From: a virus
Length of the DNA stretch: 22,666 nt
IMG/VR virus record: IMGVR_UViG_3300009106_000033
Coordinates: 1-22,666 of that record
Strand: one strand, 5' to 3'
Both the position numbers and the translations under genes were made by a program. Shown in pieces: positions 11 through 22,305 of this stretch. The notes below the pieces were generated by a model. That model saw only the letters and a program-made list of their open reading frames with translations. It was not told the DNA's origin and did no database searches. The number at the start of each line of letters is the position of its first letter. The stretch's first letter is position 1.

Positions 11-601
11 TTATGAAACGAATATAATTTGGAATGTAAATATACTTATTGCTAATGATATTCCCACAAGAAATGTCATGTAACTATAACGCAAATACTT
101 AAATTTATTCGTTGCAATTACTCTACCTATACCATATATGTCACCTGTCAATGCATCCATAATTTGTGCATCTGTCATCAATCGTTTAGCATATTCTTCT
201 TTATACTCTCGTATTGATATGTGAGCAAAATGCCCAAAGAATAATGGATTATAGAATGGTGAAGACTTATCTATTTTACCTGTCTTTGTTTTTGGATAGT
301 CAATCTTTGGCATAATCACTATGATAGCACAAACCAGTGCCACAACTGAACAAATACCCAATGCCATGAGAGGATATAATAACATTTCGTTTGTAATATT
401 TGCAACTGTAATAGAAAACACAATTGAACTAACTGTAATCATGATATTTGCTTTGGTGTCAGCCATCAATGTTAAACGCAATTGATTGTTATAATTCAAT
501 CGCAATATATTATCAACTGCCGTTCTATTCTCTGGTACTTGTTGAAACCCTACATGTGCATCCTCTTTGTTATCAAAATTTGAAAGGTCCCATTTATTCA
601 T
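11..601 (-). CDS. PycTM-like (DUF5706-type) membrane protein
   Basis: 196 aa. The family is that of the membrane effector of Pycsar defence systems, where a cyclic pyrimidine nucleotide made by PycC triggers membrane damage. Seen here: a soluble N-terminus, then the signature MADTKANIMI at residues 46-55 leading into TM helices at about 53-70 and 73-96, a cytoplasmic loop with NPLFFGHFA (about 118-126) followed by a charged helical stretch and DIYGIGRVI, then a last TM helix at about 172-194. This order fits the PycTM/DUF5706 domain over nearly its whole length. No cyclase gene is in the window. It is the last gene of an envelope operon and overlaps the GNAT-like gene by 8 bases. It may be a phage-borne effector against rivals, a decoy, or a membrane protein helping lysis; the family call rests on remembered motifs and the role is inference. 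Confidence 0.7.
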   Translation of the reverse strand: MNKWDLSNFDNKEDAHVGFQQVPENRTAVDNILRLNYNNQLRLTLMADTKANIMITVSSIVFSITVANITNEMLLYPLMALGICSVVALVCAIIVIMPKIDYPKTKTGKIDKSSPFYNPLFFGHFAHISIREYKEEYAKRLMTDAQIMDALTGDIYGIGRVIATNKFKYLRYSYMTFLVGISLAISIFTFQIIFVS

Positions 602-1064
602 CTTCGTTTCCGTGTCTTATGAAATACTCAAAGTTATAAGCCCACAATGATTCATGAATAAGTTTGGCTCCGTTGCTTTCGTGAAACTTTTTAGCCATTT
701 CTGTTTTAGGTGAGAGTGTTATATATCTCTCGTGTTTATTTTCTAATACCAATTGGGCCAATGAAATATTTAGTAACTGTCTGCCCATACCATTTACATG
801 TGACCAAAGACTATAAAATATTGCTTTGTTTCCTCCCTTACATGCACCACCCCAATGATATTCCGTGAGCAATTGTTCCTCACTGTCTGGTATTATTCTT
901 GACGTATGCATACAAACGGCGGCTATCAAATTCTCTGGTTCACCATAATAAAATACTCTCGCACCATTTTTTATTCTTAAAGCAGGTACGATATTCCTTC
1001 TTACAGGATCAGTTTCAATAATCTTACCCACTTCCTGTACATGAGTTGCTTCTTTTAGCATCAT
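594..1064 (-). CDS. GNAT-like N-acetyltransferase
   Basis: 156 aa, close to the usual length of a single-domain GNAT enzyme, which moves an acetyl group from acetyl-CoA to an amine. Seen: a segment around GMGRQLL (about residues 92-98) that fits the pyrophosphate-binding loop of motif A, and a C-terminal stretch TLSPKTEMAKKFHESNGAKL typical of the late strands and helix of the fold, where a residue follows the pattern 'F...GF/GA'. The substrate cannot be read from the sequence. It overlaps the upstream lipase gene by 4 bases (ATGA) and the downstream PycTM-like gene by 8, so it is translationally coupled inside the envelope operon. Two adjacent ATG codons are possible starts. The alternative is a GNAT-fold protein without activity. 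Confidence 0.6.
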   Translation of the reverse strand: MMLKEATHVQEVGKIIETDPVRRNIVPALRIKNGARVFYYGEPENLIAAVCMHTSRIIPDSEEQLLTEYHWGGACKGGNKAIFYSLWSHVNGMGRQLLNISLAQLVLENKHERYITLSPKTEMAKKFHESNGAKLIHESLWAYNFEYFIRHGNEDE

Positions 1065-1789
1065 AAATGTCTTTTTAACACTTTCTTATACTCTTTTATT
1101 GAATGATCCCTCGCATCAATTTTTGTAACATCGCCAATTGGATGATCTTCATCCCAATCAAGTGTTTCTGCATTTATTCTGATACCCCAATGAACATATG
1201 GGTAAGGTGGGAGAAAAGGAACAGGATCGTTTTCTAGATAAACTCTGAAATGCCCATCCATCCATAATTGTTCCATGATTACTGAAGGTGAACCAAAGGT
1301 GTATATCTGTACTTCGTATGCATCATTCTCAAACCACAACCCCAGTATTTGTGCTACTGCACCTCCAAGAGAGTGACCTGTGAATATGACCATCTCTTCA
1401 ATGGCATGATTCTCTATCAAATCTTCTTTGATTTTTTCAGCGGCATCTCGGAATCCTTTATGAATTCCTGCCGATAGTTTTTTGTCTTGAAAGGGTCTGG
1501 CGTCAAGATCTGAGAGAACATTTCTACCGTTATTAGTACCACGTATGATAACAATAGTGACACCACGATCTTGAACCACATTATATGAGAATTCATTATC
1601 TTGTATCTCCTTGCCGTCATCGTAGATTTTCTCACAATAATCTGCCATCTCAACAAGAACATCTATGCCTACTGGTAGATTTTCTTTTGTACCGTTTGCT
1701 CCGCCCATATTTAAAAATTGATTAGTTGATAGACAGGATGTAAAAATGAATAATATGAATACTAGGTTAATCTTTCCAAGAAGTTTCAT
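1061..1789 (-). CDS. Lipoprotein lipase (class 3 lipase family)
   Basis: 242 aa from the ATG at 1789; a TTG further upstream opens the frame but would put 15 charged residues before the signal peptide. The N-terminus is lipoprotein-like: MKLLGK, a hydrophobic run, then the lipobox FTSC with Cys at about 19, so the mature protein should be lipid-anchored. The body fits the class 3 lipase (alpha/beta hydrolase) family: nucleophile Ser140 in GHSLGG, Asp188 in NDPVPFLPP, and a His (about 229) in DHSIKEY near the C-terminus. That gives a complete Ser-Asp-His triad for hydrolysing acyl esters of glycerolipids. The gene overlaps the holin-like gene by 23 bases and the GNAT-like gene by 4. An envelope lipase beside a holin suggests a part in lysis or membrane remodelling (inference). 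Confidence 0.8.
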   Translation of the reverse strand: MKLLGKINLVFILFIFTSCLSTNQFLNMGGANGTKENLPVGIDVLVEMADYCEKIYDDGKEIQDNEFSYNVVQDRGVTIVIIRGTNNGRNVLSDLDARPFQDKKLSAGIHKGFRDAAEKIKEDLIENHAIEEMVIFTGHSLGGAVAQILGLWFENDAYEVQIYTFGSPSVIMEQLWMDGHFRVYLENDPVPFLPPYPYVHWGIRINAETLDWDEDHPIGDVTKIDARDHSIKEYKKVLKRHL

Positions 1790-2048
1790 TCTCTTCTTTC
1801 TTCTTCCAAGTTGCGACTCCGAGTATGCCTGCAAATGCTATGTGAAACATACCACCCATCTGTAATGTCAACGGTTCCCATCGTGTAGCATCACACACTA
1901 AACCTTTGTCAACCATTTTGTGACAATAAGTTTCCATCCTCATGTTCCACATTAATGGTGCGACAAAGAAATCGGTGAAGCATAGAAAAAGATACAAAAT
2001 CCCCGCCCAATCCTTCCAATACCGATTAATGATATAATTTATACTCAT
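1767..2048 (-). CDS. Holin-like small membrane protein
   Basis: 93 aa with two clear hydrophobic helices, at about residues 13-35 and 60-80, and a charged tail KKKEENE. The segment CFTDFFVAPLMWN followed by WEPLTLQMGGMFHIAFAGILG resembles the phage holin family found in marine T4-like phages, where the pattern is FDF...P.....W.PLTL..GG.FH..FG.I.G. Holins make holes in the inner membrane to time lysis. A short Cys-containing loop (residues 42-52) between the helices would lie on one face of the membrane. The ATG overlaps the stop of the upstream gene (ATGA) and the 3' end overlaps the lipase start, so the three are coupled. The family match is from memory. Confidence 0.6.
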   Translation of the reverse strand: MSINYIINRYWKDWAGILYLFLCFTDFFVAPLMWNMRMETYCHKMVDKGLVCDATRWEPLTLQMGGMFHIAFAGILGVATWKKKEENETSWKD

Positions 2049-2287
2049 GGTTCTTTATTTCTATATTTTTCACGCACCTCTCGCTGAAGTAAACCCCATT
2101 CAATATCTTGACAAAGAACATCTAAACGTATTAAATCTTTACGTAAACGTGTGACCTGTTTTACAATCTCATTTCGCCCTTTGTGAGTTTCAGGTAAAAC
2201 ATCATAAATTTTCTTCGATAACTCAATTAAGGATGGAACATCTTTTAATATTTGAATTTCTCTTCTAATCTGCTCTTCTGTTCTCAT
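2045..2287 (-). CDS. Small charged helical protein, unknown function
   Basis: 80 aa, with no family recognised. The sequence is rich in Glu, Lys, Arg and Leu with regular hydrophobic spacing (for example EIQILKDVPSLIELSKKIYDV and TRLRKDLIRLDVL), so it should be almost entirely alpha-helical, possibly a helical hairpin. It has no signal peptide or membrane segment, which sets it apart from most of its operon neighbours. It lies 19 bases after the amino-acid-binding protein and overlaps the holin-like gene by 4 bases. It could be a cytoplasmic partner or regulator of the holin (an antiholin-like role), but nothing in the sequence proves it. Confidence 0.6.
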   Translation of the reverse strand: MRTEEQIRREIQILKDVPSLIELSKKIYDVLPETHKGRNEIVKQVTRLRKDLIRLDVLCQDIEWGLLQREVREKYRNKEP

Positions 2288-2306
2288 GAAATTATTTAGG
2301 TGGGAT

Positions 2307-3782
2307 CTATTTTAGAGGGGGTGCATACAACAAACCTCCATCAGTGTAGAGTTTGTTTAATCCTCTCGTGAGACCTAAATCGGTGTTAGGTCCAACATGT
2401 TTTTCATATATTTCTTCATAATTACCAATCTGTCTTATAATTTCTATACTCCAATTAGCATTTAATCCTAACTTGGAACCTAAATTTTGTGAATCTCCTC
2501 CATTACGCTCACCCATAAATCGTTGTATCACAGGATCAATATTCTCCATATAATCTTCTATATTCTGTGACGTAATTCCCAACTCCTCCGCTAAAAATAT
2601 TACATTGACTGTCCATCTTACTATATCAGACCATAATTGATCTCCATATTTTACTGCTGGTCCAAGAGGTTCCTTTGATATAATTTCTGGTAATATAACA
2701 TGACGTTCTGGATACTGAAATCGTGCTTTGTGCCCTGCTAATGCTGACATATCTGTACCGTACATGTCACAATCATTATCAAGATAATAAACTTTTGGAC
2801 TATCTGATGGTGGTACTGGTACCGGTATAAAATTAATCTGCCACTTATTAAAGAAATCTTTAATGTTTTGTGCGGCGGTAGAACCGGTATTGAAACAAAC
2901 TCTTGCATTCATCATATCTTTTGCACTCTTGACACCAAGATTTTTTCTTACTATGAAACCCTGTCCATCAAAGAATACAGTAGGTAAAAACTCTATTCTC
3001 CAGTCTACATCTCTTGAAAAAGTCCATGTTGTTGTAGCAGATAAAATGTCAATTGAGCCATCAAACAATCTCTCAAAGCGTGTTCTACCATTGATTGGAA
3101 TAAACTCTATCTTTGTTTTATCAAGAAATAATGCTACTGCAAATGCTCTACAAATATCTACATCAAATCCAACCCAACCTGGCGGTTCCCCGTCACTTCT
3201 TTTAAGAAATTCTTCGCTAAATCCTGGTGTATCAGCATATGTTCCGCACACAACATATCCTCTTTCTTTTATTCGTTTGACTGTATCACCAAACCCAGGT
3301 TTATATTCCGAACCTACAACATACATATCACTCATATGCTTTTGTTTATGTTGTTGCTCTACTTGTTTAAGTCGTTCTAATTCTTTTTTGAGTGCATCTA
3401 ATTCGTCTTTTTTTATGATTGAATTGACTTCAACTTCTTCTGTATCATTATCTGGTGGAGTATTGAGTGACATCATCTCTTTATAATTGATACCCTCATT
3501 GAATTGTCGTTCTGGTTTGTGCATAGAAGGTAAGACAAATGTATCACCTTTATCTACATTACGATCCCAATCACGATCACCTGTTACATTTTCCATTTCC
3601 ATAAGAAAATCACCTCGTTCAGTATAACCTGCGAGTTTCATCATGGCATCAATATCAAGACGATTTCTTATGGTAAATTGTGCTTCAATCTCAATCATTT
3701 CAGACCCTTGGAGCACATATCCTTGCGATATACCAAGAATCCAAAACATTGTGAGCATAGCGAAAAAGATTTTAATCTTCAC
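2307..3782 (-). CDS. Periplasmic amino-acid-binding protein (AapJ/BztA-like) with added N-terminal domain
   Basis: 491 aa, beginning with GTG that overlaps the TGA of the cytochrome gene (GTGA). Residues 1-21 look like a signal peptide. Residues about 30-115 form an unrecognised domain, and 124-150 a Lys/Glu/Gln-rich helical linker likely to be a coiled coil. From about 165 to the end the protein matches the general L-amino-acid-binding proteins of Aap/Bzt ABC transporters: GYVVCGTYADTPGF, GFDVDICRAFAVAL, FDGSIDILSATTTWTFSRD, FFDGQGFIV, and the characteristic tail LGLTRGLNKLYTDGGLLYAPP. The fold is complete, with no frameshift. In bacteria such proteins deliver amino acids to an inner-membrane permease; no permease or ATPase is in the window. 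The normal bacterial protein lacks the 120-residue insert before the core. It may feed host transporters or act as an extracellular recognition module (inference). Confidence 0.85.
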   Translation of the reverse strand: MKIKIFFAMLTMFWILGISQGYVLQGSEMIEIEAQFTIRNRLDIDAMMKLAGYTERGDFLMEMENVTGDRDWDRNVDKGDTFVLPSMHKPERQFNEGINYKEMMSLNTPPDNDTEEVEVNSIIKKDELDALKKELERLKQVEQQHKQKHMSDMYVVGSEYKPGFGDTVKRIKERGYVVCGTYADTPGFSEEFLKRSDGEPPGWVGFDVDICRAFAVALFLDKTKIEFIPINGRTRFERLFDGSIDILSATTTWTFSRDVDWRIEFLPTVFFDGQGFIVRKNLGVKSAKDMMNARVCFNTGSTAAQNIKDFFNKWQINFIPVPVPPSDSPKVYYLDNDCDMYGTDMSALAGHKARFQYPERHVILPEIISKEPLGPAVKYGDQLWSDIVRWTVNVIFLAEELGITSQNIEDYMENIDPVIQRFMGERNGGDSQNLGSKLGLNANWSIEIIRQIGNYEEIYEKHVGPNTDLGLTRGLNKLYTDGGLLYAPPLK

Positions 3783-4240
3783 TTGAGGACCCTGTAAATG
3801 TTCATGAGTTCTTCATCTGGCATGGGTGTTGCCATTGTGTAGTATTTTTGATGACCTATTGTCATGAATGCTTTAAGATCAGCAAAACTTGGATAAGTCG
3901 CTTGGAGCCCAGATATGAGATAATCTGGTTCAAGGTGACATGTAGAGCATTCATTACCTTTTGCAAATACTCTCGTTGCCGCCTTATATCTTTCGCTTGT
4001 TACCAAGACCGAAGTAAGATCCTTTTCAATCCATTCAACCTTTTCTTCAATTCCAGGAATGACTAGAAATAACAAATAAACTAGCAATCCTATTGTTATG
4101 AAGATAAAGGTTTTAAGACTTTTTACTGCATCAAAAGTATCTTCTTCAATCTTTTTGACAGGTTCAAATCTAACCTCTCCTCCTTCGGTTTCTATTTCTT
4201 GACCAACACCTTCTGGCTTTTTGGTTTTTTGCTCAGCCAT
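3779..4240 (-). CDS. Membrane-anchored monoheme c-type cytochrome
   Basis: 153 aa from the ATG at 4240, which has AGGGG seven bases upstream. A charged cytoplasmic N-terminus of about 40 residues is followed by one TM helix (FIFITIGLLVYLLFLVIPG, about 45-63), then a periplasmic domain of about 90 residues. That domain has one heme-attachment motif CSTCH (Cys98, Cys101, His102) and a later ATPMPDEELMNIYRVL, where Met140 is a natural sixth ligand; this is the standard ending of a small class I cytochrome c. Such proteins carry single electrons at the outer face of the inner membrane. Heme would have to be attached by the host's cytochrome c maturation system. The gene sits between a 3-TM protein and the binding protein, overlapping the latter by 4 bases. 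The redox partner is unknown. Confidence 0.8.
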   Translation of the reverse strand: MAEQKTKKPEGVGQEIETEGGEVRFEPVKKIEEDTFDAVKSLKTFIFITIGLLVYLLFLVIPGIEEKVEWIEKDLTSVLVTSERYKAATRVFAKGNECSTCHLEPDYLISGLQATYPSFADLKAFMTIGHQKYYTMATPMPDEELMNIYRVLK

Positions 4241-4267
4241 TGACAAACCCCTTATTCAATTAATTAT

Positions 4268-4612
4268 TTACTTTTTGCCTACCTCGGATAATTTAGCCGT
4301 TATTTGTTGTGAAAACCATTTAAGTACGATTGGAATACTCACATTTGAGGTCAGACCAAATAAGAATCCTACAGGATATTTGTAGGAATCATATGCTTGT
4401 GCTTGAGGCACATTATTAAAGACTACTAAAATTAATAGAAATCCTGAGACTGACATTCCCAGATTGATTAATAGATCGAAAAGGATGAGAGGTATATTCC
4501 CTTTATATTTTTCTTTATGGTCTTGACGGTAGTTAAATAAAAAGATCCAAAAAGATGAGAAAAGTATTATTCCAATCATGATTAAATTCATAGAGTTAAA
4601 TATCTCTTCCAT
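4268..4612 (-). CDS. Three-TM membrane protein, first gene of the envelope operon
   Basis: 114 aa. Hydrophobic helices lie at about residues 8-26, 42-64 and 82-98, with a charged loop RQDHKEKYKG between the first two and a basic C-terminus. I do not recognise the family. The size and layout allow a holin or a small membrane scaffold. The start is supported by AAAGGTGATAT just before the ATG. A NATAAATA late-promoter box lies 52 bases upstream on the same strand, so the gene is likely to be the first of a late operon. It is 27 bases upstream of the cytochrome gene and may be its membrane partner (inference). Confidence 0.6.
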   Translation of the reverse strand: MEEIFNSMNLIMIGIILFSSFWIFLFNYRQDHKEKYKGNIPLILFDLLINLGMSVSGFLLILVVFNNVPQAQAYDSYKYPVGFLFGLTSNVSIPIVLKWFSQQITAKLSEVGKK

Positions 4613-4663
4613 ATATCACCTTTGTAATTGTTGTTGAATTTCCGTCCATGGAGAGTTTCGTAA

Positions 4664-4671
4664 TATTTATT
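4664..4671 (-). promoter_or_regulatory. Candidate T4-type late promoter for the envelope operon
   Basis: The minus strand reads AATAAATA, which fits the NATAAATA late-promoter box of marine T4-like phages. It lies about 52 bases upstream of the first gene of the envelope operon (start at 4612), with nothing else coding between. The box is AT-rich, so chance is possible, but it falls in the only real intergenic region on this strand. Confidence 0.5.
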
Positions 4672-4707: not shown

Positions 4708-4715
4708 TATAAATA
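4708..4715 (+). promoter_or_regulatory. Candidate T4-type late promoter, plus strand (perfect TATAAATA)
   Basis: An exact match to the T4 late-promoter box TATAAATA, in the intergenic region and facing opposite to all large genes here. Transcription would begin at about 4721-4723, leaving a leader of about 38 bases before a micro-ORF with a strong ribosome binding site. Together with the box at 4664-4671 it makes a divergent pair 36 bases apart. Confidence 0.55.
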
Positions 4716-4759
4716 CAGAGGTATTGGAATCACAAGATTAATTATAAGAGAAGAGAACT

Positions 4760-4822
4760 ATGTTTGAAGTAGCATTATTAATCCTTAATGTTTATGTTGC
4801 TTATTTAATATTAATTCATTAA
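4760..4822 (+). CDS. Plus-strand hydrophobic micropeptide (20 aa)
   Basis: ATG at 4760, 20 sense codons and TAA at 4820. The peptide starts MFEVALLIL and ends YLILIH. It is almost wholly hydrophobic, with one Glu near the start and one His at the end, long enough to cross a membrane once. GAGAAGAG lies a few bases before the ATG, and a perfect late-promoter box lies 44 bases upstream of it. It is the only plausible plus-strand gene in the window and would converge on the phosphoribosyltransferase gene. It is too short for a homology call; the case rests on promoter, ribosome binding site and hydrophobicity together. The alternative is a leader peptide or an untranslated antisense RNA start. 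Confidence 0.45.
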   Translation: MFEVALLILNVYVAYLILIH

Positions 4823-4827
4823 AAAAA

Positions 4828-5268
4828 TTATTTATGATATTCTAGATTATTAGGATTGTCTGCCCATGTTTTTGGCATTTGAAACAACGCATTTACCCAA
4901 TCTTGTTTTGGTTTATTTCTTGCAAATATACACCATCCAAAATATTCTTCACCTTTAAAATTTTCATCAACAAAATCATCAAAAGAACCACCAGTTGTCA
5001 GTACATCGTCACAAATAAGATATGGATCATCAGAATTTTGAGTTGAATATTCGTTTAACCATCTACTGAGTTCCAGACCACCTCTCGGTATTCCTATAGC
5101 GGCACAAAAAGGTCTTTTCTCATATTCCATAATCATTCTCGCAAGACATTTCCATTCAGGTGAAGTTATAGCATCACATTCTATTTTCCAGTGTAACACA
5201 TCACCTGAGTGACTTACAAAATCTTCTTCTACAAACAAATAGTTTTTTCTTACATGAAAATCGTTCAT
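4828..5268 (-). CDS. Phosphoribosyltransferase-family protein
   Basis: 146 aa. The PRPP-binding signature is present as YLICDDVLTTGGSF (about residues 83-96): two acidic residues followed by TTGG. An upstream strand-loop CAAIGIPRGG (about 55-64) matches the PPi loop of type I phosphoribosyltransferases. Such enzymes join a base to PRPP, or act as regulators that bind PRPP. The spacing resembles orotate or adenine transferases more than Gpt, but the base cannot be named. The start has AAGGATTACC upstream, and the ATG overlaps the previous stop. It is the last gene of the run that also holds PRPP synthetase and a Gpt-like enzyme, so a salvage role fits. Confidence 0.7.
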   Translation of the reverse strand: MNDFHVRKNYLFVEEDFVSHSGDVLHWKIECDAITSPEWKCLARMIMEYEKRPFCAAIGIPRGGLELSRWLNEYSTQNSDDPYLICDDVLTTGGSFDDFVDENFKGEEYFGWCIFARNKPKQDWVNALFQMPKTWADNPNNLEYHK

Positions 5269-5626: not shown

Positions 5627-5981
5627 TTATAATGGTTGAAAAATGTCTAACCAATATAAACGAACTTATACCTATCCATAAAGTATTGAACGCTAAAAGT
5701 GTAGGTAATAATTTTTGTTCACTAACCCAAATTAAAAGTCCAGATGTAAATAATGTAATTATATGTGCCCACCATACTTCATAACTAAAAAATATCGCAG
5801 GCAATATAACTAGTAATTTACCACTCCAGGCCATAGCCTCTACGATATTGTATCTCTTTTTCCAATATTGTTTATCTATCCACATTGCGTACACCTCTCG
5901 TACACGTTGAAAACCTGTTGCAGAGTATATTATGTAAATAAATGTAAACCATACTAAAAAAGTTAAAAGAATTATTATCAT
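5622..5981 (-). CDS. Small polytopic membrane protein
   Basis: 119 aa with hydrophobic segments at about residues 2-20, 52-68, 70-88 and 92-110, and a basic patch between the first and second (DKQYWKKRY). No family recognised. The ATG overlaps the stop of a tiny upstream ORF (ATGA), with GGAATG a few bases upstream. The gene is bracketed by a 15-bp exact direct repeat, which suggests that it came in, or could be lost, by recombination between the repeats. The repeats may equally reflect reuse of a translation start site. Confidence 0.6.
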   Translation of the reverse strand: MIIILLTFLVWFTFIYIIYSATGFQRVREVYAMWIDKQYWKKRYNIVEAMAWSGKLLVILPAIFFSYEVWWAHIITLFTSGLLIWVSEQKLLPTLLAFNTLWIGISSFILVRHFSTIIR

Positions 5982-6067
5982 AACATTCCATAACTATCCC
6001 ATGTTGCAATTATATAATATACACCATAGATACACAATGAATGAAATAGAAACATTGAGAGTGTCAT
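5978..6067 (-). CDS. 29-residue membrane peptide between PRPP synthetase and the next gene
   Basis: A short ORF begins with the ATG that overlaps the PRPP synthetase stop (ATGA) and ends with a TGA that overlaps the next start (ATGA), so it fills the gap exactly. The peptide begins MTLSMFLFHSL, continues with a hydrophobic, Tyr-rich stretch (CIYGVYYIIA) and ends TWDSYGML: one membrane helix. No clear ribosome binding site, so translation would rely on coupling. The double 4-base overlap, which is the style of neighbouring genes, is the main argument that it is real. Confidence 0.5.
   Translation of the reverse strand: MTLSMFLFHSLCIYGVYYIIATWDSYGML
5984..5998. repeat. 15-bp direct repeat, copy 2
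   Basis: The same CATTCCATAACTATC as at 5612-5626. Here it covers the end of the 29-residue ORF and the translation-initiation region of the membrane-protein gene. Confidence 0.7.
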
Positions 6068-6990
6068 GAGAATAATACCGATATGGATTCGTCATGATGC
6101 ACTCTGCGTATTGCTTCTGCAAATAGTTTGCTTACAGATAGCACTTTGACCTTTTGATTATCATATTGTGGAATTGAATCAGTGATGGTCAGCCCACTCA
6201 TGTTGGATTTGTTGATAGTCTTCATCCCTCCGTTGCTTAATACGCCATGCGTTATATACGCTTGCACTTCTTCTGCTCCATTGGCCAAAAGAGCATCTGC
6301 CGCCTTGACAAATGTTCCTCCTGTATCCACTATATCGTCTACTATTATACATTGCTTTCCTTTGACTTTACCGATTACGTTCATTGCTTCGCTTTCATTC
6401 GCTTTGTCTCTGCGTTTATCTACGATAGCAATGTCCAGATTAAGTTCTTTTGCGATAGTCCTTGCTCGTCTGACACCACCTGCATCAGGTGATACAATAA
6501 GTGCATTTCCATTACTCACCATTGGTTTTTTCTTTAGGTCTTTGACGAATAATGATTTAGACCTCAAGTCATCTACAGGAATGTTAAAGAATCCTTGTAT
6601 TTGACCAGCATGTAAATCCATAGTCAATACTCTGTCAGCACCAGATGCTTGTATCATATCTGCTACTAATTTTGCGGAAATTGGTGTTCTAGCGGAGGGT
6701 TTTCTATCTTGTCTAGCGTAACCATAATAAGGCATAACAGCCGTAATGCGACCGGCACTCGCACGTTTACATGCATCAATGACAATCAATAATTCCATGA
6801 GATTGTCGTTTGCAGGGTTGCAAGTGCTTTGTATAATAAAGACATCTTCACCACGAATGTTCTGATGTATTTCACAAAAGATTTCACCATCAGCAAATCG
6901 TGTCAATTTCATTTCACCTAATGCAATGCCTGCATGATTTGATATGTGACTTGCAAGCAGTTTATTAGAATTACCAGATAATAAAATCAT
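6064..6990 (-). CDS. prs: Ribose-phosphate pyrophosphokinase (PRPP synthetase)
   Basis: 308 aa, the usual family length. It makes PRPP from ribose 5-phosphate and ATP, the common precursor for purine, pyrimidine, NAD, histidine and tryptophan synthesis. Motifs are intact: RFADGE near the N-terminus, the ATP-binding PYYGYARQDRK, active-site His127 in DLHAGQIQGFF, the flexible-loop KRR (about 192-194), and the PRPP loop IIVDDIVDTGGTF (about 215-227). The ATG at 6990 is preferred over an in-frame GTG at 7002 because it has GGAAGG at good spacing and makes an ATGA overlap with the upstream stop. The sequence style is alphaproteobacterial. It shares an operon with two phosphoribosyltransferases and Amt. 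Confidence 0.95.
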   Translation of the reverse strand: MILLSGNSNKLLASHISNHAGIALGEMKLTRFADGEIFCEIHQNIRGEDVFIIQSTCNPANDNLMELLIVIDACKRASAGRITAVMPYYGYARQDRKPSARTPISAKLVADMIQASGADRVLTMDLHAGQIQGFFNIPVDDLRSKSLFVKDLKKKPMVSNGNALIVSPDAGGVRRARTIAKELNLDIAIVDKRRDKANESEAMNVIGKVKGKQCIIVDDIVDTGGTFVKAADALLANGAEEVQAYITHGVLSNGGMKTINKSNMSGLTITDSIPQYDNQKVKVLSVSKLFAEAIRRVHHDESISVLFS

Positions 6991-7199
6991 TTTTTTATCC
7001 ACCTTCCAGTCTCATCTTGTTTAAGAGACCTCCAATGTTTACCTGGATAAAATGCATCTAAATGACAATCATCGTGAGTTAGACATTTTATAAATGGCAC
7101 ACCTTTCATCATATGTGTATTTGCTACTACCTCATCAACTAATTCACGGTAAACTCCCCAACCCTCAGAAATTGGGTTGGGCTGTTTTATTTTACTCAA
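6987..7199 (-). CDS. Small hypothetical protein, start uncertain
   Basis: 70 aa if it begins at the TTG at 7199 that overlaps the Amt stop (TTGA); 41 aa if it begins at the first ATG (Met30). Neither has a clear ribosome binding site. No family recognised. The C-terminal half is rich in Cys, His, Asp and Trp (CLTHDDCHLDAFYPGKHWRS), possibly metal binding. The region just after the TTG holds a GC-rich hairpin (7157-7181), so the first 20 codons may be leader rather than coding. Its stop overlaps the PRPP synthetase start. Confidence 0.5.
   Translation of the reverse strand: MSKIKQPNPISEGWGVYRELVDEVVANTHMMKGVPFIKCLTHDDCHLDAFYPGKHWRSLKQDETGRWIKK
7157..7181 (+). terminator. GC-rich hairpin with T-rich tail on the plus strand
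   Basis: CCCAACCC (7157-7164) pairs with GGGTTGGG (7174-7181) around a 9-base loop. On the plus strand it is followed by a T-rich tail (TGTTTTATTTTA), the form of a Rho-independent terminator. That would stop antisense transcription. On the minus strand, the direction of the genes, the tail is weak (AGTTTACC), so there it may instead protect or trim the amt mRNA 3' end. It lies 15-40 bases after the amt stop. Confidence 0.4.
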
Positions 7200-8434
7200 T
7201 TTGATACCAAATTAAGAGATTGTTCACTTTCAGGAACAAATGTTCCTCTACCTAATTTAATTTCGTCATGAGTAACAAATTCACCATGACCTATCGTATA
7301 AGCAGAATGACCAAATTCAGCAATGTCAATACCCTGAGTTTCTTCTTCCAAAGAAATCCGGAGTCCCATTGCTAGTTTAATAACATACCAAACTGCAAAA
7401 CTAGAGCCAAAAACAAATGCTCCAATAATTAAAATGCCCTGTATTTGCGACATCAAACTTACTTCATGATTAAACACTCCTACTGCTAATGTTCCCCATA
7501 TACCAGCAACTAAATGAACAGACAATGCTCCTACCGGATCATCAATTTTTAGTTTATCCCACATAGGGATTGCTAGTACACATAATCCTGCTCCAATTAT
7601 TCCTATAACAGTTGCTAACCACATAGTAGGATAATCAGGACCTGCAGTAATAGAAACTAGTCCTGCTAATGCACCATTCAATACCATCGTCAAATCAACT
7701 CTTTTATATAACAGTTGAGTCAAAATCATAGCAGTAATAGCGCCAGCACAGGCGGCAATATTTGTATTTACAAACACACTTGCAATAGCATTTACATCTG
7801 CTTTAGTAGCCATTGCCAATTGACTACCACCATTAAAACCAAACCACCCCAACCAAAGAATCATTGTTCCTAAAGTTGCTAATGGAAGATTTGAAGGGGG
7901 AATCAAGTTAATTTTTCCGTCATCAGTATACTTACCTGATCTGGCACCTAATAATAGAACACCAGCAAGTGCGGCCCAACCTCCAACTGAATGAACAATT
8001 GTAGATCCTGCAAAGTCAGAGAACCCCATCTCAGATAGAAATCCCCCACCCCATGTCCAGGCTCCTTGCATAGGATATATGATTGCGGAAAGTACAAGAA
8101 CAAAAACCATAAATGACCAAAACCTCATTCGTTCTGCTATTGCTCCTGAAATAATAGATGCGGTTGTTGCGACAAAGACTACTTGAAAAAAGAAGTCAGA
8201 GGTCCCTGCATGGTCTCCATCCGACATGGCTCCATACATGAGATAATAACCACATGCGAGGAATGCTAGACAACTAAGAGCATATAAACAAACATTCTTA
8301 GTTAGGATTGCGGTCGTATTTTTCGTCCTCACCAATCCTGATTCTAACATTGCAAATCCAGCGGCCATCCAAAAAACAAGCACACCAGAAAATAATAACA
8401 AAAAAGTATTCAGAATATACTGAATATCGTCCAT
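7196..8434 (-). CDS. amt: Ammonium transporter, Amt family
   Basis: 412 aa from the ATG at 8434, which has AAGGAGAAAG just upstream; a codon further upstream would place the ribosome site inside the gene. Amt trimers move ammonium across the inner membrane. The full eleven-helix pattern is present: FWMAAGFAMLESGLVR at the N-terminus, GAIAERM, WTWGGGFLSEMGFSDFAGSTIVHSVGG with pore His148, GWFGFNGGS, and LSVHLVAGIWGTLAVG with the second pore His307. The C-terminal tail with EETQGIDIAEFGHSAY, the part that couples subunits and meets GlnK regulators, is also complete. No sign of decay. It sits in the nucleotide-metabolism run just after a structured leader. Confidence 0.95.
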   Translation of the reverse strand: MDDIQYILNTFLLLFSGVLVFWMAAGFAMLESGLVRTKNTTAILTKNVCLYALSCLAFLACGYYLMYGAMSDGDHAGTSDFFFQVVFVATTASIISGAIAERMRFWSFMVFVLVLSAIIYPMQGAWTWGGGFLSEMGFSDFAGSTIVHSVGGWAALAGVLLLGARSGKYTDDGKINLIPPSNLPLATLGTMILWLGWFGFNGGSQLAMATKADVNAIASVFVNTNIAACAGAITAMILTQLLYKRVDLTMVLNGALAGLVSITAGPDYPTMWLATVIGIIGAGLCVLAIPMWDKLKIDDPVGALSVHLVAGIWGTLAVGVFNHEVSLMSQIQGILIIGAFVFGSSFAVWYVIKLAMGLRISLEEETQGIDIAEFGHSAYTIGHGEFVTHDEIKLGRGTFVPESEQSLNLVSN

Positions 8435-8455
8435 CTTTCTCCTTCCGAGAAACAA

Positions 8456-8481
8456 AGCGGTAAGTCTTCCACCTTACCGCT
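8456..8481 (-). promoter_or_regulatory. Stem-loop in the amt leader
   Basis: AGCGGTAAG (8456-8464) and CTTACCGCT (8473-8481) form a perfect 9-bp stem with an 8-base loop. On the minus strand it is followed by TTGTTTC and then the amt ribosome binding site about 10 bases later. It could be a weak terminator or attenuator that sets amt expression below that of the upstream gene, or an mRNA processing site. The U-run is poor for a true terminator. Confidence 0.5.
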
Positions 8482-8493
8482 AATAATTAATAA

Positions 8494-8721
8494 TTAGGCA
8501 CTAGGTTTAGAATAAATGCCCCACAATACCCAAATTGCAACTAATCCGACGAGTCCTTCGCTTCCAAGTTGCTTTACTAATCCTACTACAGAACCGATCA
8601 CATCTAAACCGATAAACGGTACGGCGGCTCCAAAGAGGATCTGAAGCACTACTCCAAGTGCTATAAGTGATAAACCTATTTCTGTGATGGATCTAATCCA
8701 TCCGAGAATTTTATCTATCAT
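8494..8721 (-). CDS. Small membrane protein
   Basis: 75 aa with two hydrophobic stretches, at about residues 12-35 and 55-70, joined by a Gly-rich segment FGAAVPFIGLDVIGSVVGLV. It resembles a small protein family of unknown function common in marine T4-like phages; that match is from memory. Holin-like properties are possible but unproven. AAAAAGGAGAAAAATG gives a strong ribosome binding site, so it may be made in large amounts. It stands between the Gpt-like gene and amt and is followed by a stem-loop. Confidence 0.65.
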   Translation of the reverse strand: MIDKILGWIRSITEIGLSLIALGVVLQILFGAAVPFIGLDVIGSVVGLVKQLGSEGLVGLVAIWVLWGIYSKPSA

Positions 8722-8736
8722 TTTTCTCCTTTTTTA

Positions 8737-9207
8737 TTAGACTGGAGCATTCCACCATTGCTCCCACGGAAAATGTATCCATGTTTTAGTGGAATCCTTC
8801 GCAATCTCGTTGACATAATATGTTGGTTCAAAGTTACATTCATTGTTCCACCATAAGGTTGCATATTTAACATCAACTATATTCTGTTCTGGTCCTTTTC
8901 GTGGACCTTTGATATGTTGAGCCATTTTTTCAAATGTTTCTCCCGAATCACATATATCATCAACGATTAAAACCCTTTCATCGGTGGGTTTCGGCAAATA
9001 ATCTTCCCATTCAGGAAAATCTCTCAATGACGATTTAACAGGCTTAAACGGTTTCTTGAACCAATGAGATAACATAACACCAGGAGTGAGACCACCTCTG
9101 GATAATCCAACAATCACATTTGGGTCGAATTTGTCAAGAACAATATCTCTTGCAAGCACATTTACATCTCTTCTCATTTCTTCCCAACTATACCATAATT
9201 TATTCAT
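8737..9207 (-). CDS. Purine phosphoribosyltransferase (Gpt-like)
   Basis: 156 aa, near the length of xanthine-guanine phosphoribosyltransferase. These enzymes convert guanine, xanthine or hypoxanthine plus PRPP to the nucleotide. Seen: VIVGLSRGGLTPGVMLSHW (about 31-49, PPi-binding loop), the PRPP signature VLIVDDICDSGETF (about 79-92), and an aromatic C-terminus WIHFPWEQWW that is typical of the Gpt subgroup. ATTAAGGATTATC precedes the ATG. With PRPP synthetase and a second phosphoribosyltransferase in the same operon it would let the phage recycle bases from degraded host nucleic acid (inference). Confidence 0.8.
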   Translation of the reverse strand: MNKLWYSWEEMRRDVNVLARDIVLDKFDPNVIVGLSRGGLTPGVMLSHWFKKPFKPVKSSLRDFPEWEDYLPKPTDERVLIVDDICDSGETFEKMAQHIKGPRKGPEQNIVDVKYATLWWNNECNFEPTYYVNEIAKDSTKTWIHFPWEQWWNAPV

Positions 9208-17704: not shown

Positions 17705-20700
17705 TTATTCATTTTCAATAAAAGTTTCTCCTGTAAATTCTTCTAATTTACGTATCATTCGTTCCATATTTATTCTTGTAACTTTACCAGTTTTAGTATT
17801 GCGTGAATAAAACTCCCATTCGTTATCTTTATTATGCGGTCCTAATTGAGTTTCATTGCCACCTTCATCTTTTGTGAATAAGTGAGTTAGTCCATCATCC
17901 GCACCTCCGGATACATTTCTGGCATATAGATATGCTTGTCCTTCAGGAACTGTTGAAGGTGCAACTCCATTTCCAAAAACAAGAACATTATTTGCATCCT
18001 CACCAATATCAGTTGTAGTCGTACTTGTTGTTCCAAAACTGACAACTCTTAATTTTAAGTTTAAATCATCAGTCGTATTATCATAAAATATTCTGTTATC
18101 AGTAACACTTGCGGCAATTGTGACATTTGAATTGAAAGTTGTATTACCATAAACTGTTAATTTTTGACCAATGTTTACACTCTTTGCAATTCCTGCACCA
18201 CCAGTTACTTTTAAAGCTCCTGTTGTATTTGAAGAGGATGTCGTGGTACCAGTTACAACTACATTTGCTACCGTAATCTGTCCAGGTTTTGTTTCGTCAA
18301 GTGCAGTAAAATCAACTCTATTTTCATCATCTGTGTGTAAAAATCTCGAAACCTGGGTTTGTCCTAAGCTAACAATTTGTAATCTATTTAATTCGGTTAC
18401 ATCTGCTAAACATCCATCGAGTATATTCAACTCATCAGCAGATGATGTTACAAGTGAGCCTCCTAATTTTAAACCATAAGTAGCATGATCGTGACTAGCA
18501 ACATCAAGACTAATATTACCATCGTTAACAGTTAATGTACCAATACTCGTTTCAGTATCATAACTTGCACTAACAGTTTCTTCAAAATTTTCTACTGCAT
18601 TAAGGTCAGCAGGGGCTAGTGTATCAGAAGTTCCTGATAATTTATTAAGATCTGCTACATCACCTGTAAAACCATCTAGTGTATTAATTTCGGCTGCGGT
18701 AGATGTAATAAGAGTACCAGCCAATTTTAAACCTATATCTATTCCATTATGTGATGTTATATCTAAATCTTCACTGAACTCTCCATCATTGGAGGCTCTA
18801 AAAGTACCAATAACTTCAAGAGAATGGCCTGGATCTATGGTATTAACACCTAATCTACCATTAGTGTCTTTTACAAAAGTATAAAGAGTAGGATGACTTC
18901 CTAATTTAACCCCTGCACTTGATGATACACTTGTATTTCCATGAATAACTACATTTGCTTGTGCATCATTTGTAATGATATAGTCATCAGTATCTAACTT
19001 ACCGCCTAATTGTGGTGTTAAATCTTGATGTAGATCAGTCATATTTGTACCTGAGCCAGATGAGAACACAATATTACCATGTAACAATCTTAAAAATTGA
19101 CCATTAGCACCTGCAGTATTTGGTAAATTATATGCATCACTTACTCTAATAACACCATTTGCAAGACCATTATAAGTTCCAAGACTTATAACACCATTAG
19201 CAGAAGATATTTCTGAATTGTCAAGTATCATATCTCCGCCAATAATCATTCCTGTAGAATTACTTCCTATTCTATCAGTACCACCATCTTCTAATATAAA
19301 GGCGCCATCATCAGTTCCACTATCATATGCAGTACCATCTTCTAATAACAACAAGCCTTCAGTTGATATTGTGTCATTTATTGACAATTGACCACCAAAA
19401 ACAACAGAAGTGCCATCCTGAACATATACACCATTTCCAGCGAGTATATGTTTAGCAATATCTAAGTTTACATTCGAATATAATTCAGTTCTCTTTGTGT
19501 CAAGTTTAATAAATTCATTTTCATTATTCGAATTAATAATTAAATTATTATTAGCGTGAATAGTAACTTTTGAACCTGCACTCGTGGATCCCATGACAAC
19601 ATTACCGGCAACTTCACTTGTGCCTCTTACATTTGCATGTCCACCAATAAATGTATTAGCCGCTACATTTACAGTATGTAACATTTCAACATTACCTGAG
19701 ATATTTACTGAACCATCAAGATTTGTATTCGCAGATGTCGTTACTAATATAGTATTTGATGTAAACGCTGGCAATGCTGTATTTGCAGTGACTACTAAAT
19801 CGTCTCCTTCAATTGTAGTTTTTGTACCATCTAATGTAGTATTGGCGGAACTAATTTTAGTGTTCGCTCCAGAAATAAAAAGATTTGCAGTAACGTTTGC
19901 AGTTTCACCTGCAAGTGTCGTATTTGCAGATGTGTTCAATGATGTTGTTGTAATTGTGACTTTAGATCCAGATATAACTGAAATTTCACCATCAGCATTT
20001 GAATGAATATATTCTGTATCATCTCTTAATTGTAAAGATTTGTCTGTAGATATTTTTACATTATCAGTAAAATTACCAAATAATCCAGATACATTTCCAG
20101 TAGCAGTTATATCACCACTTGCATTTACATTTCCTGTGGCAACCGCATCATCAAGCCAAATGTTTCTAAATCGTTTTGCGGTAGTACCTAAATCATATGT
20201 CGAATCTGTGTCAGGAATAATATGAGAACCCACATCTGCACCAAAAGAAACGGTATCTGTGTCATCACTTCCTAAAGTAATAGTTCCACCATCAGCAGTT
20301 ATATTACCATTAGCATGAAGGTTTCCATGAATATTTACATTTTCTCCAACCCATAAACTTTTTGCAATTCCAACACCACCTGCAGTAACAATTGATCCTG
20401 TTGTATTAGTTTCTGAATCTGTAGTATCTGTAACATTTACATTACCAGCAACTGATAAATCGTCTCCAAGTGCAGTATTACCCGTTGTTGTTATATTACC
20501 TTTTATATAAACATTTGCAACTCCAGTAGGAGATATATAAACATTCGCACCTGTTATATTAAGATTTGCGGTTAATGTGGTATTAGCAGTAATATAATTA
20601 TTTGAACCTGTGATATTAACATTTGCACCACTCATCGTGACGTTTGAAGATATGACAGTATTAGTACCCTCTAAAGTAGTATTAGAAGATGAAAATGTAT

Positions 20701-21496
20701 TTCCAGCATCAATTTTTAATAATACCGTATCTGTGCCTTTTGGATTACCTCCACCAGATGTGACACCAAGAGACACATTTCCAAAAAATGTCGCATTAGC
20801 ATTTGAAGTTAAATTTGCCCCATTAAACAAACTCAAAATACCAGTTTGTGTTAAATTGGCAGACGATGAGAGATTCGATGATATGACTGTATTTGTTCCT
20901 GCAAGTAAAGTATTACTTGTTATATGCGTATTGCCAGAATTTATTACAGTATTTGTTGTATCAGAATGTACTATTAAATTTGCTTTAAATGTTGTATTTG
21001 CATCAACTGTTAAATCTGTTCCATTGACATATACATTTGCTCCTGTCGTTGTCAAATTTGCCGAAAATGTCGCATTAGCATCCACCTCAATTGCACCAGA
21101 ATGTCCAACAATTTTTTGAACATACACATCTTTCCATGATGCAATAGAATTACCTAAGTCATATGTAATTGTCGTATCTGGAGTTATATCTGAACTAAGA
21201 TTTGTAATTGCTCCATTTCCAGCTAATGTAAAAACACCATTTACTGTTACGTTACCATCAACTATTATATTTTTAGAAACGCCTATTCCACCTCTAAATG
21301 TCACACTACTAGCAGTTGAATTTGAAGCCGCCGTAACATTAGCAAAAACTATTTGAGGTTCTACATTAGCAAAGAATTTTTCAATTGAGACTTTTTTATT
21401 TGTAGGTGTTCCTGCAGGATCATCCACTACCAGCAGGATATCATCCTTGCTGATAGTGGTCATTGCAGTAAGACCTGATATGCGTTTATCTGCCAT
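17705..21496 (-). CDS. Giant fibre-like virion protein with shared N-terminal attachment domain
   Basis: 1263 aa. Residues 1-45 (RISGLTAMT, DDILLVVDDPAGTPTNKKVSI) match the N-terminus of the 260-aa neighbour and probably attach the fibre to the virion. Long Asn/Thr/Gly-rich beta-repeats follow (NITGANVYI, GNVNVSGDI and similar), likely a beta-helix trimer. Repeated units include GG.GI.K....G (three copies), IIPDTDSTYDLG, and TAAEINTLDG / SADELNILDG. The end (EWEFYSRNTKTGKVTRINMERMI) is helical and lacks the usual intramolecular chaperone Ser-Asp cleavage motif that I could see. Receptor binding is the likely job. Confidence 0.8.
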   Translation of the reverse strand: MADKRISGLTAMTTISKDDILLVVDDPAGTPTNKKVSIEKFFANVEPQIVFANVTAASNSTASSVTFRGGIGVSKNIIVDGNVTVNGVFTLAGNGAITNLSSDITPDTTITYDLGNSIASWKDVYVQKIVGHSGAIEVDANATFSANLTTTGANVYVNGTDLTVDANTTFKANLIVHSDTTNTVINSGNTHITSNTLLAGTNTVISSNLSSSANLTQTGILSLFNGANLTSNANATFFGNVSLGVTSGGGNPKGTDTVLLKIDAGNTFSSSNTTLEGTNTVISSNVTMSGANVNITGSNNYITANTTLTANLNITGANVYISPTGVANVYIKGNITTTGNTALGDDLSVAGNVNVTDTTDSETNTTGSIVTAGGVGIAKSLWVGENVNIHGNLHANGNITADGGTITLGSDDTDTVSFGADVGSHIIPDTDSTYDLGTTAKRFRNIWLDDAVATGNVNASGDITATGNVSGLFGNFTDNVKISTDKSLQLRDDTEYIHSNADGEISVISGSKVTITTTSLNTSANTTLAGETANVTANLFISGANTKISSANTTLDGTKTTIEGDDLVVTANTALPAFTSNTILVTTSANTNLDGSVNISGNVEMLHTVNVAANTFIGGHANVRGTSEVAGNVVMGSTSAGSKVTIHANNNLIINSNNENEFIKLDTKRTELYSNVNLDIAKHILAGNGVYVQDGTSVVFGGQLSINDTISTEGLLLLEDGTAYDSGTDDGAFILEDGGTDRIGSNSTGMIIGGDMILDNSEISSANGVISLGTYNGLANGVIRVSDAYNLPNTAGANGQFLRLLHGNIVFSSGSGTNMTDLHQDLTPQLGGKLDTDDYIITNDAQANVVIHGNTSVSSSAGVKLGSHPTLYTFVKDTNGRLGVNTIDPGHSLEVIGTFRASNDGEFSEDLDITSHNGIDIGLKLAGTLITSTAAEINTLDGFTGDVADLNKLSGTSDTLAPADLNAVENFEETVSASYDTETSIGTLTVNDGNISLDVASHDHATYGLKLGGSLVTSSADELNILDGCLADVTELNRLQIVSLGQTQVSRFLHTDDENRVDFTALDETKPGQITVANVVVTGTTTSSSNTTGALKVTGGAGIAKSVNIGQKLTVYGNTTFNSNVTIAASVTDNRIFYDNTTDDLNLKLRVVSFGTTSTTTTDIGEDANNVLVFGNGVAPSTVPEGQAYLYARNVSGGADDGLTHLFTKDEGGNETQLGPHNKDNEWEFYSRNTKTGKVTRINMERMIRKLEEFTGETFIENE

Positions 21497-21522
21497 AGTC
21501 CTACTTTATGATACGAATACCT

Positions 21523-22305
21523 TTATACGTTATCTATAGTGGTATTCGATGTTGCTAGTAACCAATAATCGGTACCATTAATTTTACATCTTACTCTGGT
21601 ATCGGCGGCTGTATCAGCACAATTAGCGGAAACCATAATATTATTGTTTCCTGTCTGATGAGCATTCACTTCGGTATTTCCTGCATTAGTCATAGATACA
21701 TAACCAGATGCATTAGAACCTAACTCAAACAAATACTGAACTGGATAAGCACCAGGTGAACGATTTGCAGTTGAGCCATGCTCATCATCTAAACAGATAA
21801 ACGCATCAGGTTTCATAGATCGTGTCGTACTATTAGAATCACTAAATTGAATTTTCATACCATATGCTCTTGCAGTACCTGAAGACCATGCAGTATTAAT
21901 AGAACTAGGTGCCGCACCATTAGTAATGTCTACATGAATAATTGATCCTGCTACAACTCCGGTTACATTAGCATAAGCGCCCTGAACGTTTGCAGAGAAT
22001 TTTGATCCATATAGAAATTGAACTGTTCTTGCACTAGACGATGTTTTGATAAAATTTGTATGCGAACTTAAAGGAATTGTATCACCAGATGTGGCATCAT
22101 TTCCTACGTTTTGAGTTGCGGCAACAAAAGTTCTACCAGAACTATCACCAGAGTCGGTTACGTGATTTAAGTTTCCAAACAAATTGAAAACCGAAACTCT
22201 TTTATTTACTGGACTGCCACTAGGATCATCAACCACATGTAAGATATCAGCGGAAGCGATACCTGTGGACAGATCCGTAAGGGCCGTCATTTTCTTATCA
22301 GCCAT
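21523..22305 (-). CDS. Short fibre-like virion protein sharing the N-terminal domain
   Basis: 260 aa. Residues 1-45 ([31 protein letters not shown]) are paralogous to the start of the giant protein downstream. The rest is a Ser/Thr/Asn-rich beta domain with aromatic strands, ending in [33 protein letters not shown] precedes the ATG. It starts 71 bases after the upstream gene, whose terminator lies between, so it needs read-through or its own promoter. Role: a short tail or neck fibre with the same attachment site as the giant one (inference). Confidence 0.7.

Follow-up and report, generated by a model that had tools for sequence, protein, structure and literature searches.

A near-inseparable TM3, cytochrome c and binding-protein gene trio in a virion-linked cassette of marine T4-like phages, with a possible role in opening the host envelope

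Introduction

Several described systems come close to the subject of this report, a cassette of eight genes in a virus record of 22,666 bp (IMG/VR IMGVR_UViG_3300009106_000033; "the window" below is this whole stretch), the first three of which encode a small protein with three predicted transmembrane (TM) helices (TM3), a membrane-anchored mini-cytochrome c, and an amino-acid substrate-binding protein (SBP). Class I holins (lambda S type) are proteins of ~110 aa with three TM helices, an outside N-terminus and inside C-terminus, and a basic tail, all of which TM3 shares by prediction. T4, to our knowledge, has neither a cytochrome nor an SBP, and its holin T has a periplasmic domain, which TM3 lacks; the comparison is one of possible manner of working only. 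What is alike is a late membrane pore with a periplasmic regulator, antiholin RI, in a T4-like phage (available portions of PMC8385771 and PMC11413866). The CsgGF curli pore of phage Melnitz is likewise an envelope protein set of a marine T4-like phage with a proposed role in lysis regulation (PMC9004378, in the portion available), but its proteins and site differ, and tblastn with Melnitz CsgG and CsgF found no match in two large relatives of the window, G001 and G002.

Respiration and nitrogen-uptake genes are also on record from marine viruses: cbb3 oxidase and NADH dehydrogenase (available part of PMC3474794), and amtB in marine T4-like viruses (PMC8115048, likewise in part). Those have host counterparts, whereas none was found for TM3 or the cytochrome. 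The SBP shares its pocket and signature with the AapJ-type protein 4z9n, but here it has no adjacent permease or ATPase, is linked to a cytochrome, and in some clades has an N-terminal extension. The last gene of the cassette is, by Pfam and PADLOC, of the same family as the PycTM effector of Pycsar systems, but is found in a phage, without a cyclase, and within a virion-linked cassette.

The finding set out below is that TM3, the cytochrome c, and the SBP form a near-inseparable, strongly conserved trio, in a cassette that is widespread in IMG/VR. One would not expect to find a c-type cytochrome and an amino-acid-binding protein among the fixed late genes of a phage. We tentatively put first the reading that the cassette is a late inner-membrane/periplasm module controlling how and when the host envelope opens, in a clade of marine T4-like phages; late energy and nutrient upkeep of the host is a close rival. 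TM3 and the cytochrome would be clade markers under either. The arrangement itself matched nothing known in the searches made (phages, plasmids, PDB, Pfam, PHROGs, and the open-access literature), in agreement with a sequence-only reading of this stretch, which had held that it is not a known phage module; both leading readings invoke known phage late-envelope functions. No description of the cassette was found in the open-access literature, and the main text of PMC11360552 does not contain "cytochrome," "amino acid transport," "substrate-binding," "ABC transporter," or "electron transport."

Conservation of the cassette

Relatives were collected from IMG/VR, in which 205 stretches encode a relative of the cytochrome. 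Loci came from an SBP scan (8 loci), a cytochrome scan (21), and a cytochrome alignment (the best 80 of the 205 relatives). The main set is made up of 92 cytochrome loci, which fall into 44 clusters when grouped at 95% identity, with each cluster represented by the locus with most room around it; the window's own cluster (7 loci) is represented by L015, which lacks w5 and the GNAT-called open reading frame (ORF). L002–L005, L007, and L009 are omitted from the 92, their contigs being included under other ids.

TM3 is immediately upstream of the cytochrome in all 43 clusters with room for it, and the SBP immediately downstream in 41 of 42, the exception (L046) being an insertion. When the search is started from TM3 instead (best 80 of 185), the cytochrome is found in 72/72 loci with room and the SBP in 63/63, in a set that overlaps the cytochrome set (23 of the 80 loci are in both, and others are on the same contigs) and is not independent of it. 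The sequence-only reading had proposed a check for co-occurrence in marine relatives; by these counts the trio is neither scattered nor missing among them.

In the window the trio opens a run of eight co-directional ORFs on the minus strand, transcribed from 4612 down to 11, in the order TM3, cytochrome c, SBP, w5, w4, lipase, GNAT-called ORF, PycTM:

4664–4670, minus: candidate T4-type late promoter, ATAAATA, ~50 bp before the TM3 start
4268–4612, minus: TM3, 114 aa, three predicted TM helices, core gene 1; candidate holin-type pore or scaffold
3779–4240, minus: membrane-anchored mini-cytochrome c, core gene 2; CSTCH at residues 98–102
2307–3782, minus: SBP, AapJ-type amino-acid-binding protein (SBP_bac_3), core gene 3; PF00497, 3e-10
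2045–2287, minus: w5, 80-aa helical protein, accessory
1767–2048, minus: w4, 93-aa small membrane protein
1061–1789, minus: class-3 lipase lipoprotein, accessory; PF01764 (Lipase_3), 5.8e-19, phrog_21992, PDB lipases
594–1064, minus: GNAT-called ORF, accessory; label from the sequence-only reading, no tool support
11–601, minus: PycTM-family membrane protein (Pycsar/2TM effector family), without cyclase, near-core; PF18967, 1.1e-21

All eight ORFs of the run as first described are present on this one strand (11–4612). They had been called overlapping, which holds for five of the seven junctions (by 4, 4, 23, 4, and 8 bp); there are gaps of 27 bp between TM3 and the cytochrome and of 19 bp between the SBP and w5. 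The description of the products as mostly membrane or periplasmic is borne out by a mean hydropathy of 1.6 over 19 residues, reached by 6 of the 8 but by only 3 of the 21 remaining window ORFs that were taken as genes (Fisher p 0.004). The PycTM, lipase, and SBP matches listed are above the curated Pfam cut-offs; w4 and w5 have implausible Pfam matches only. Two of the original labels found no support: the "GNAT" ORF has no Pfam match at E ≤ 0.1 or PDB match at E ≤ 1, and the "holin-like" w4 (like two relatives of it) matches no holin family in Pfam or PHROGs.

Beyond the trio, conservation falls off. PycTM follows within 5.5 kb of the SBP in 22 of 26 clusters, as its immediate neighbor in 14. 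Among the 15 clusters with 5 kb of room, w4 is found in 6, the lipase in 5, w5 in 1, and the GNAT-called ORF in none; per locus (n = 92) the counts are 21 for w4, 19 for the lipase, 8 for the GNAT-called ORF, and 6 for w5. Because w4, lipase, w5, and GNAT-called ORF are so patchy, there is no conserved eight-gene system: the joint system originally proposed stands for the TM3-cytochrome-SBP core, and not for the eight genes together. Chance co-location of the eight was also considered; it is rejected for the trio on the counts above, while w5 and the GNAT-called ORF are patchy passengers.

This patchiness also favors a different account, that two unrelated cargo units (TM3-cytochrome-SBP and PycTM-w4-lipase) have come to rest at a hot-spot between terminase genes, without acting jointly. 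Melnitz has a different insert between the same genes. In two loci found with PycTM, L265 and L291, PycTM and lipase stand without any gene of the trio, and neither record contains the cytochrome. Against it, of the 56 loci with 2.6 kb of room in a search from PycTM (best 80 of 149), 54 have the SBP upstream and 53 the cytochrome, and SBP and PycTM distances correlate (r 0.72). We consider it improbable.

The cassette is a marker of one clade and not a general feature of T4-like phages, since a search from gp15 (best 80 of 592) finds it mostly in close gp15 relatives: in all 7 loci at ≥73% identity, plus L131 (46%) and L134 (41%). In the remaining 71 loci it was not seen in the available flank, which is short in some.

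Genomic setting, promoter motif, and selection

The window is from a T4-like phage, as judged by its primase, RuvC-like resolvase, ribonucleotide reductase, and ThyX; the nearest match to the reductase in phage records is that of Puniceispirillum phage HMO-2011 (64.7%). A record of 116.9 kb (G001) contains a sequence near-identical to the window, together with relatives of gp21, gp23, gp55, polymerase, and RecA.

In 24 of 43 clusters the gene before TM3 is that of the small terminase, and the two often share a few bases. The PHROGs-supported order in L023 is head-tail adaptor, head closure, sheath stabilizer, small terminase, cassette, large terminase, sheath, and gene clusters of this neighborhood are found again in other loci. 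In the clusters where TM3 is not behind the small terminase gene, other genes precede it (in 8 clusters, those of one family), and the cassette order is unchanged.

ATAAATA, which we read as the late promoter motif from work on T4 and cyanophages, was looked for in the 150 bp before TM3. It is present in 6 of the 19 clusters where TM3 does not come after the small terminase gene, and in none of the 24 where it does. Of the late-promoter box claimed in the sequence-only reading, the copy ~50 bp before TM3 is there, but the window as a whole shows no enrichment of the motif, with 7 copies against 13.2 expected. Gene position and promoter motif together would imply late expression of the cassette.

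Distances between relatives correlate most strongly for cytochrome and SBP (0.83), followed by TM3 and SBP (0.76), cytochrome and PycTM (0.73), and TM3 and cytochrome (0.62). Correlations with gp15 distances are 0.40 for the cytochrome and 0.56 for the SBP; since their mutual correlation exceeds either of these, the two plainly move as a pair, whereas TM3 is linked to the virion genes as well. Selection on the cassette is strongly purifying: dN/dS, from comparison of the window with four relatives, is 0.03–0.15 for TM3, 0.03–0.06 for the cytochrome, 0.08–0.17 for the SBP, and 0.06–0.28 for PycTM (three finite cases).

The cytochrome

The close rival reading is late upkeep of the host: the SBP would feed the host's general amino-acid ATP-binding cassette (ABC) permease, the cytochrome would pass electrons to the host oxidase, and TM3 would anchor both, so that the membrane stays energized during packaging. 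Viral cbb3 oxidase genes from the Indian Ocean give this some precedent (PMC3474794, in the available part).

The Pfam match of the cytochrome, SoxA-TsdA (0.0012), is below cut-off. The CxxCH motif is present in 43/43 clusters, with a hydrophobic anchor (maximum Kyte-Doolittle value 2.69) and predicted export, and Cys98, Cys101, His102, and His130 (in window numbering) are invariant in 44 aligned cytochromes. Over the 43 clusters His130, Lys123, and Tyr149 are invariant, and Met126 is kept in 42. After the heme motif, His130 is the sole invariant His or Met. Met136, at what we take to be the position of the distal Met of class I cytochromes, is present in 35 of 43 clusters, with Leu, Arg, Val, Ala, or Thr in the other 8, so that the distal Met before the C-terminal helix which defines class I is not a constant feature. 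Heme ligation by two histidines may be proposed from this pattern. Such ligation goes with a low redox potential. With His130 as the sole invariant ligand candidate, a simple respiratory shuttle or bc1-to-oxidase carrier is therefore less likely, and the variable distal Met, unlike that of a high-potential shuttle, argues against the upkeep reading.

In the AlphaFold2 model (pLDDT 62, pTM 0.29) the anchor is part of a long helix, and the CxxCH motif is in the C-terminal part. The model has no significant match in PDB; 6 of 20 weak matches are named cytochrome c6, all at E > 1.

No relative of the cytochrome was found in 50,697 phage records, 72,556 plasmid records, or PDB. A scan of 84,980 species genomes with two degenerate peptide patterns, which distant relatives would escape, gave four contigs of metagenome-assembled genomes (MAGs), each with TM3 and SBP near the cytochrome. 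The cytochrome profile matched a single genome among 395 of Bacteroidota and another among 400 of the Chloroflexi phylum (names as in the record titles), in both cases a MAG contig from the pattern scan. The TM3 profile had no plasmid matches, and one among the same 395 Bacteroidota genomes, again a MAG contig already found by the pattern scan. The trio occurs on contigs filed in MAGs of Flavobacteriaceae (L044), Chloroflexi (L045), Flavobacteriales (L046), and Saprospiraceae (L047), which are probably phage contigs binned with the MAGs. A host version of the trio was thus sought, with these contigs as the only matches, in profile searches whose coverage did not extend to Pseudomonadota. Because relatives of the cytochrome and TM3 were not found outside phage-like contigs, their function looks phage-intrinsic, which within that same coverage counts against upkeep; so does the near-inseparable trio behind a terminase gene, which differs from patchy auxiliary genes.

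The amino-acid-binding protein

The best PDB match of the SBP is 4z9n (E 1.4e-92, residues 161–489), and residues 167–491 are 45% identical to alphaproteobacterial (Sinorhizobium) binding proteins, a similarity that suggests alphaproteobacteria as the host group. Arg257, Thr302, and Asp344, which we assign to the pocket from HisJ-type proteins, are invariant in nine sequences, and the C-terminal signature is kept; by profile match and conserved pocket, this is an AapJ-type protein, and its origin in host metabolism is that of an auxiliary metabolic gene. An extra N-terminal segment of ~130 aa is absent in many clades. None of the eight cassette genes encodes the permease or ATPase of such an operon.

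These properties speak for upkeep, together with an AmtB encoded in the window and a relative, L008, with two further binding proteins and an adjoining transporter ATPase and permease (by eye). Upkeep leaves PycTM unexplained, in addition to the points raised by the cytochrome. We regard it as less likely than not, though close behind the leading reading. If it were true, a respiratory and nitrogen-supply device would be among the core virion-linked genes of these phages.

Two neighborhoods with transport genes may be described here. The AmtB-type ammonium transporter gene lies between those for PRPP synthetase and a phosphoribosyltransferase, all on the same strand (window 6064–9207). In L008 (8268–12943), BMP-type and NMT1-type binding proteins behind the cassette are followed by the transporter ATPase and permease, which together look like a complete ABC uptake system carried by a phage; L102 has gene families similar to this region.

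TM3

The AlphaFold2 model of TM3 (pLDDT 80.5) has helices at residues 7–30, 40–67, 75–88, and 93–113. Mean numbers of Lys plus Arg over 43 clusters are 0.02 for the N-terminus, 3.63 for loop 1, 1.23 for loop 2, and 4.65 for the C-terminus, from which the N-terminus is predicted to be outside, and loop 1 and the basic C-terminal tail inside. Its three predicted TM helices and predicted N-out/C-in orientation are those of a class I holin. A BFVD structure search has a holin as best match, below significance (E 0.17, prob 0.94), and there are no significant matches to the model in PDB.

An ABC permease fragment was considered as an alternative identity, given a sub-cut-off match to BPD_transp_1 (E 0.0033), and rejected: an equally weak Cation_efflux match stands beside it, and both were judged composition-driven.

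Two Vibrio phages each encode a small membrane protein that the TM3 profile also picks up, at E 3e-8 and 2e-7; these values are for a set of 310 ORFs selected following weak tblastn matches (E 0.2 and 0.4). These distant relatives are at 5881–6219 in L115 and 5932–6222 in L116.

PycTM and the accessory genes

PADLOC PycTM models are matched by 11/11 PycTM proteins, and the window protein has the PycTM effector domain (PF18967, PADLOC). A Pfam scan of 20 of the 29 window proteins found no pyrimidine cyclase (PycC); this is a PycTM-family protein, not a Pycsar system. PycTM is reported to disrupt membranes through pore formation (2024; PMC11224242, in the portion available).

A stand-alone PycTM without a cyclase could act in counter-defense or superinfection exclusion, poisoning host PycTM oligomers or soaking up the cyclic nucleotide, while the trio alters the envelope against competitors. 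Its linkage to late structural genes would however be late timing for anti-defense, the cytochrome c and SBP would have no explanation, and the trio also occurs without PycTM nearby. Of the explanations discussed here we think this the least probable.

Where w4 and the lipase occur together they are neighbors in 18 of 19 loci. In the lipase relatives examined, GHSLGG is present in 7/7 and a lipobox in 6/7. The six w5 loci (of 92) are five in the window's cluster plus L026. The GNAT-called ORF has relatives before TM3 in two loci (L048, L055) and after PycTM in a third (L082).

Some loci have other genes in or next to the cassette. Between lipase and PycTM, L026 (5412–8643) has an SbmA/BacA-like transporter and a trypsin/PDZ protease with an N-terminus that by eye is lipoprotein-like. 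Behind PycTM, L009 (15582–17210) has a DNA/RNA endonuclease (PF01223) with a signal-like N-terminus, then ErpA- and IscU-like Fe-S genes (by eye). L055 (14786–16468), and also L048 and L080, have a gene trio (clusters 36–38) whose first protein is MotA/ExbB-like by eye.

Lysis genes and the control of envelope opening

One relative of 167 kb, G002, has a large terminase with 59% identity to the Melnitz and cyanophage proteins. Two genes after PycTM it encodes a 91-aa XhlA/holin-like protein, whose PHROGs matches are weak: two unnamed families come first (0.0013, 0.0027), followed by a holin (0.0047) and hemolysins (0.015, 0.018). A filter on hydrophobicity and length passes 20 of the 180 plus-strand ORFs of G002, six of them in or right behind the cassette. 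Its endolysin (PF07486; PHROGs endolysin) is at 52.6 kb, the cassette at 147 kb.

In other loci, PF07486 endolysin relatives are on the same strand behind PycTM, at ~2.6 kb in L209, L217, L222, and L226, and at ~4.7 kb in L054 and L311. All four distinct endolysins that were read have a hydrophobic N-terminus (15-residue maxima 2.5–2.8). In the 30 PycTM clusters with 1.5 kb downstream, the genes found within 5 kb are the large terminase (10), w4 (8), lipase (8), endolysin (2), and XhlA-like protein (2). A search for GH108 endolysins had no matches in 11 records and is uninformative, the control having matched nowhere either. The lipase lipoprotein, w4, XhlA/holin-like protein, and endolysin with a hydrophobic N-terminus are candidate demolition genes, downstream in various clades.

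In the lysis-control reading, TM3, with three helices, N-terminus out, and basic tail inside, would act as a class-I-holin-like pore, and PycTM as a second membrane-permeabilizing component. The anchored cytochrome c and the SBP would be periplasmic partners of TM3, in the way that antiholin RI regulates holin T in T4; once membrane energy was lost, the exported endolysin would become able to act. This reading is placed first because a near-inseparable trio lies in a virion gene run, two of its members have no host version that was found, and its function looks phage-intrinsic; and because the predicted topology of TM3, PycTM, and the endolysins fit. If it is true, a heme protein open to experiment would link virus release to the physiology of the host.

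A number of results weigh against it, chief among them that TM3 has no holin match at family level and that the pocket of the SBP is intact. TM3 matches no holin family in Pfam (window protein) or PHROGs (44 members), and is unusually conserved for a holin. That 13 of the 50 viral structure matches listed for it are named holin speaks for the reading, but none is significant (E ≥ 0.17), and holins are presumably frequent by name among small viral membrane proteins. By the conservation of its residues the amino-acid pocket appears intact, and would fit nutrient uptake as well. The endolysin is distant from the cassette in G002 and G008, and, unlike the lambda S arrangement, follows PycTM within 5 kb in just 2 of 30 clusters. 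The trio lacks PycTM within 5.5 kb in clusters L047, L048, L050, and L055, and none was found in the whole records of three of these four, which are possibly fragments. TM3 distances correlate as well with gp15 (0.76) as with SBP (0.76), and better than with the cytochrome (0.62). In the Vibrio phages, genes annotated LysM and tail protein are near the TM3 relative (L116), and neither record has a cytochrome or SBP match.

The sequence-only reading had speculated about a lysis or envelope-takeover system with redox and nutrient sensing as its trigger; the topology of TM3, the neighboring genes, and the endolysins agree with a part in lysis, and the SBP pocket agrees equally with uptake of nutrients. 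A more specific form of lysis control would be an energy- and nutrient-gated clock: a TM3 holin held shut by a membrane-tethered heme protein that reads periplasmic redox state and by a supply-reading SBP, with release when respiration or feeding fails, and with PycTM as a captured immune effector adding a further pore. We think it unlikely, if somewhat less so than the two-cargo account.

Two observations concern other parts of the window. At 4708–4830, before a very short ORF, there is a perfect TATAAATA on the plus strand, pointing away from the cassette. At 17705–22305, proteins of 1263 and 260 aa resemble each other in an N-terminal segment of ~45 residues, with 52% identity.

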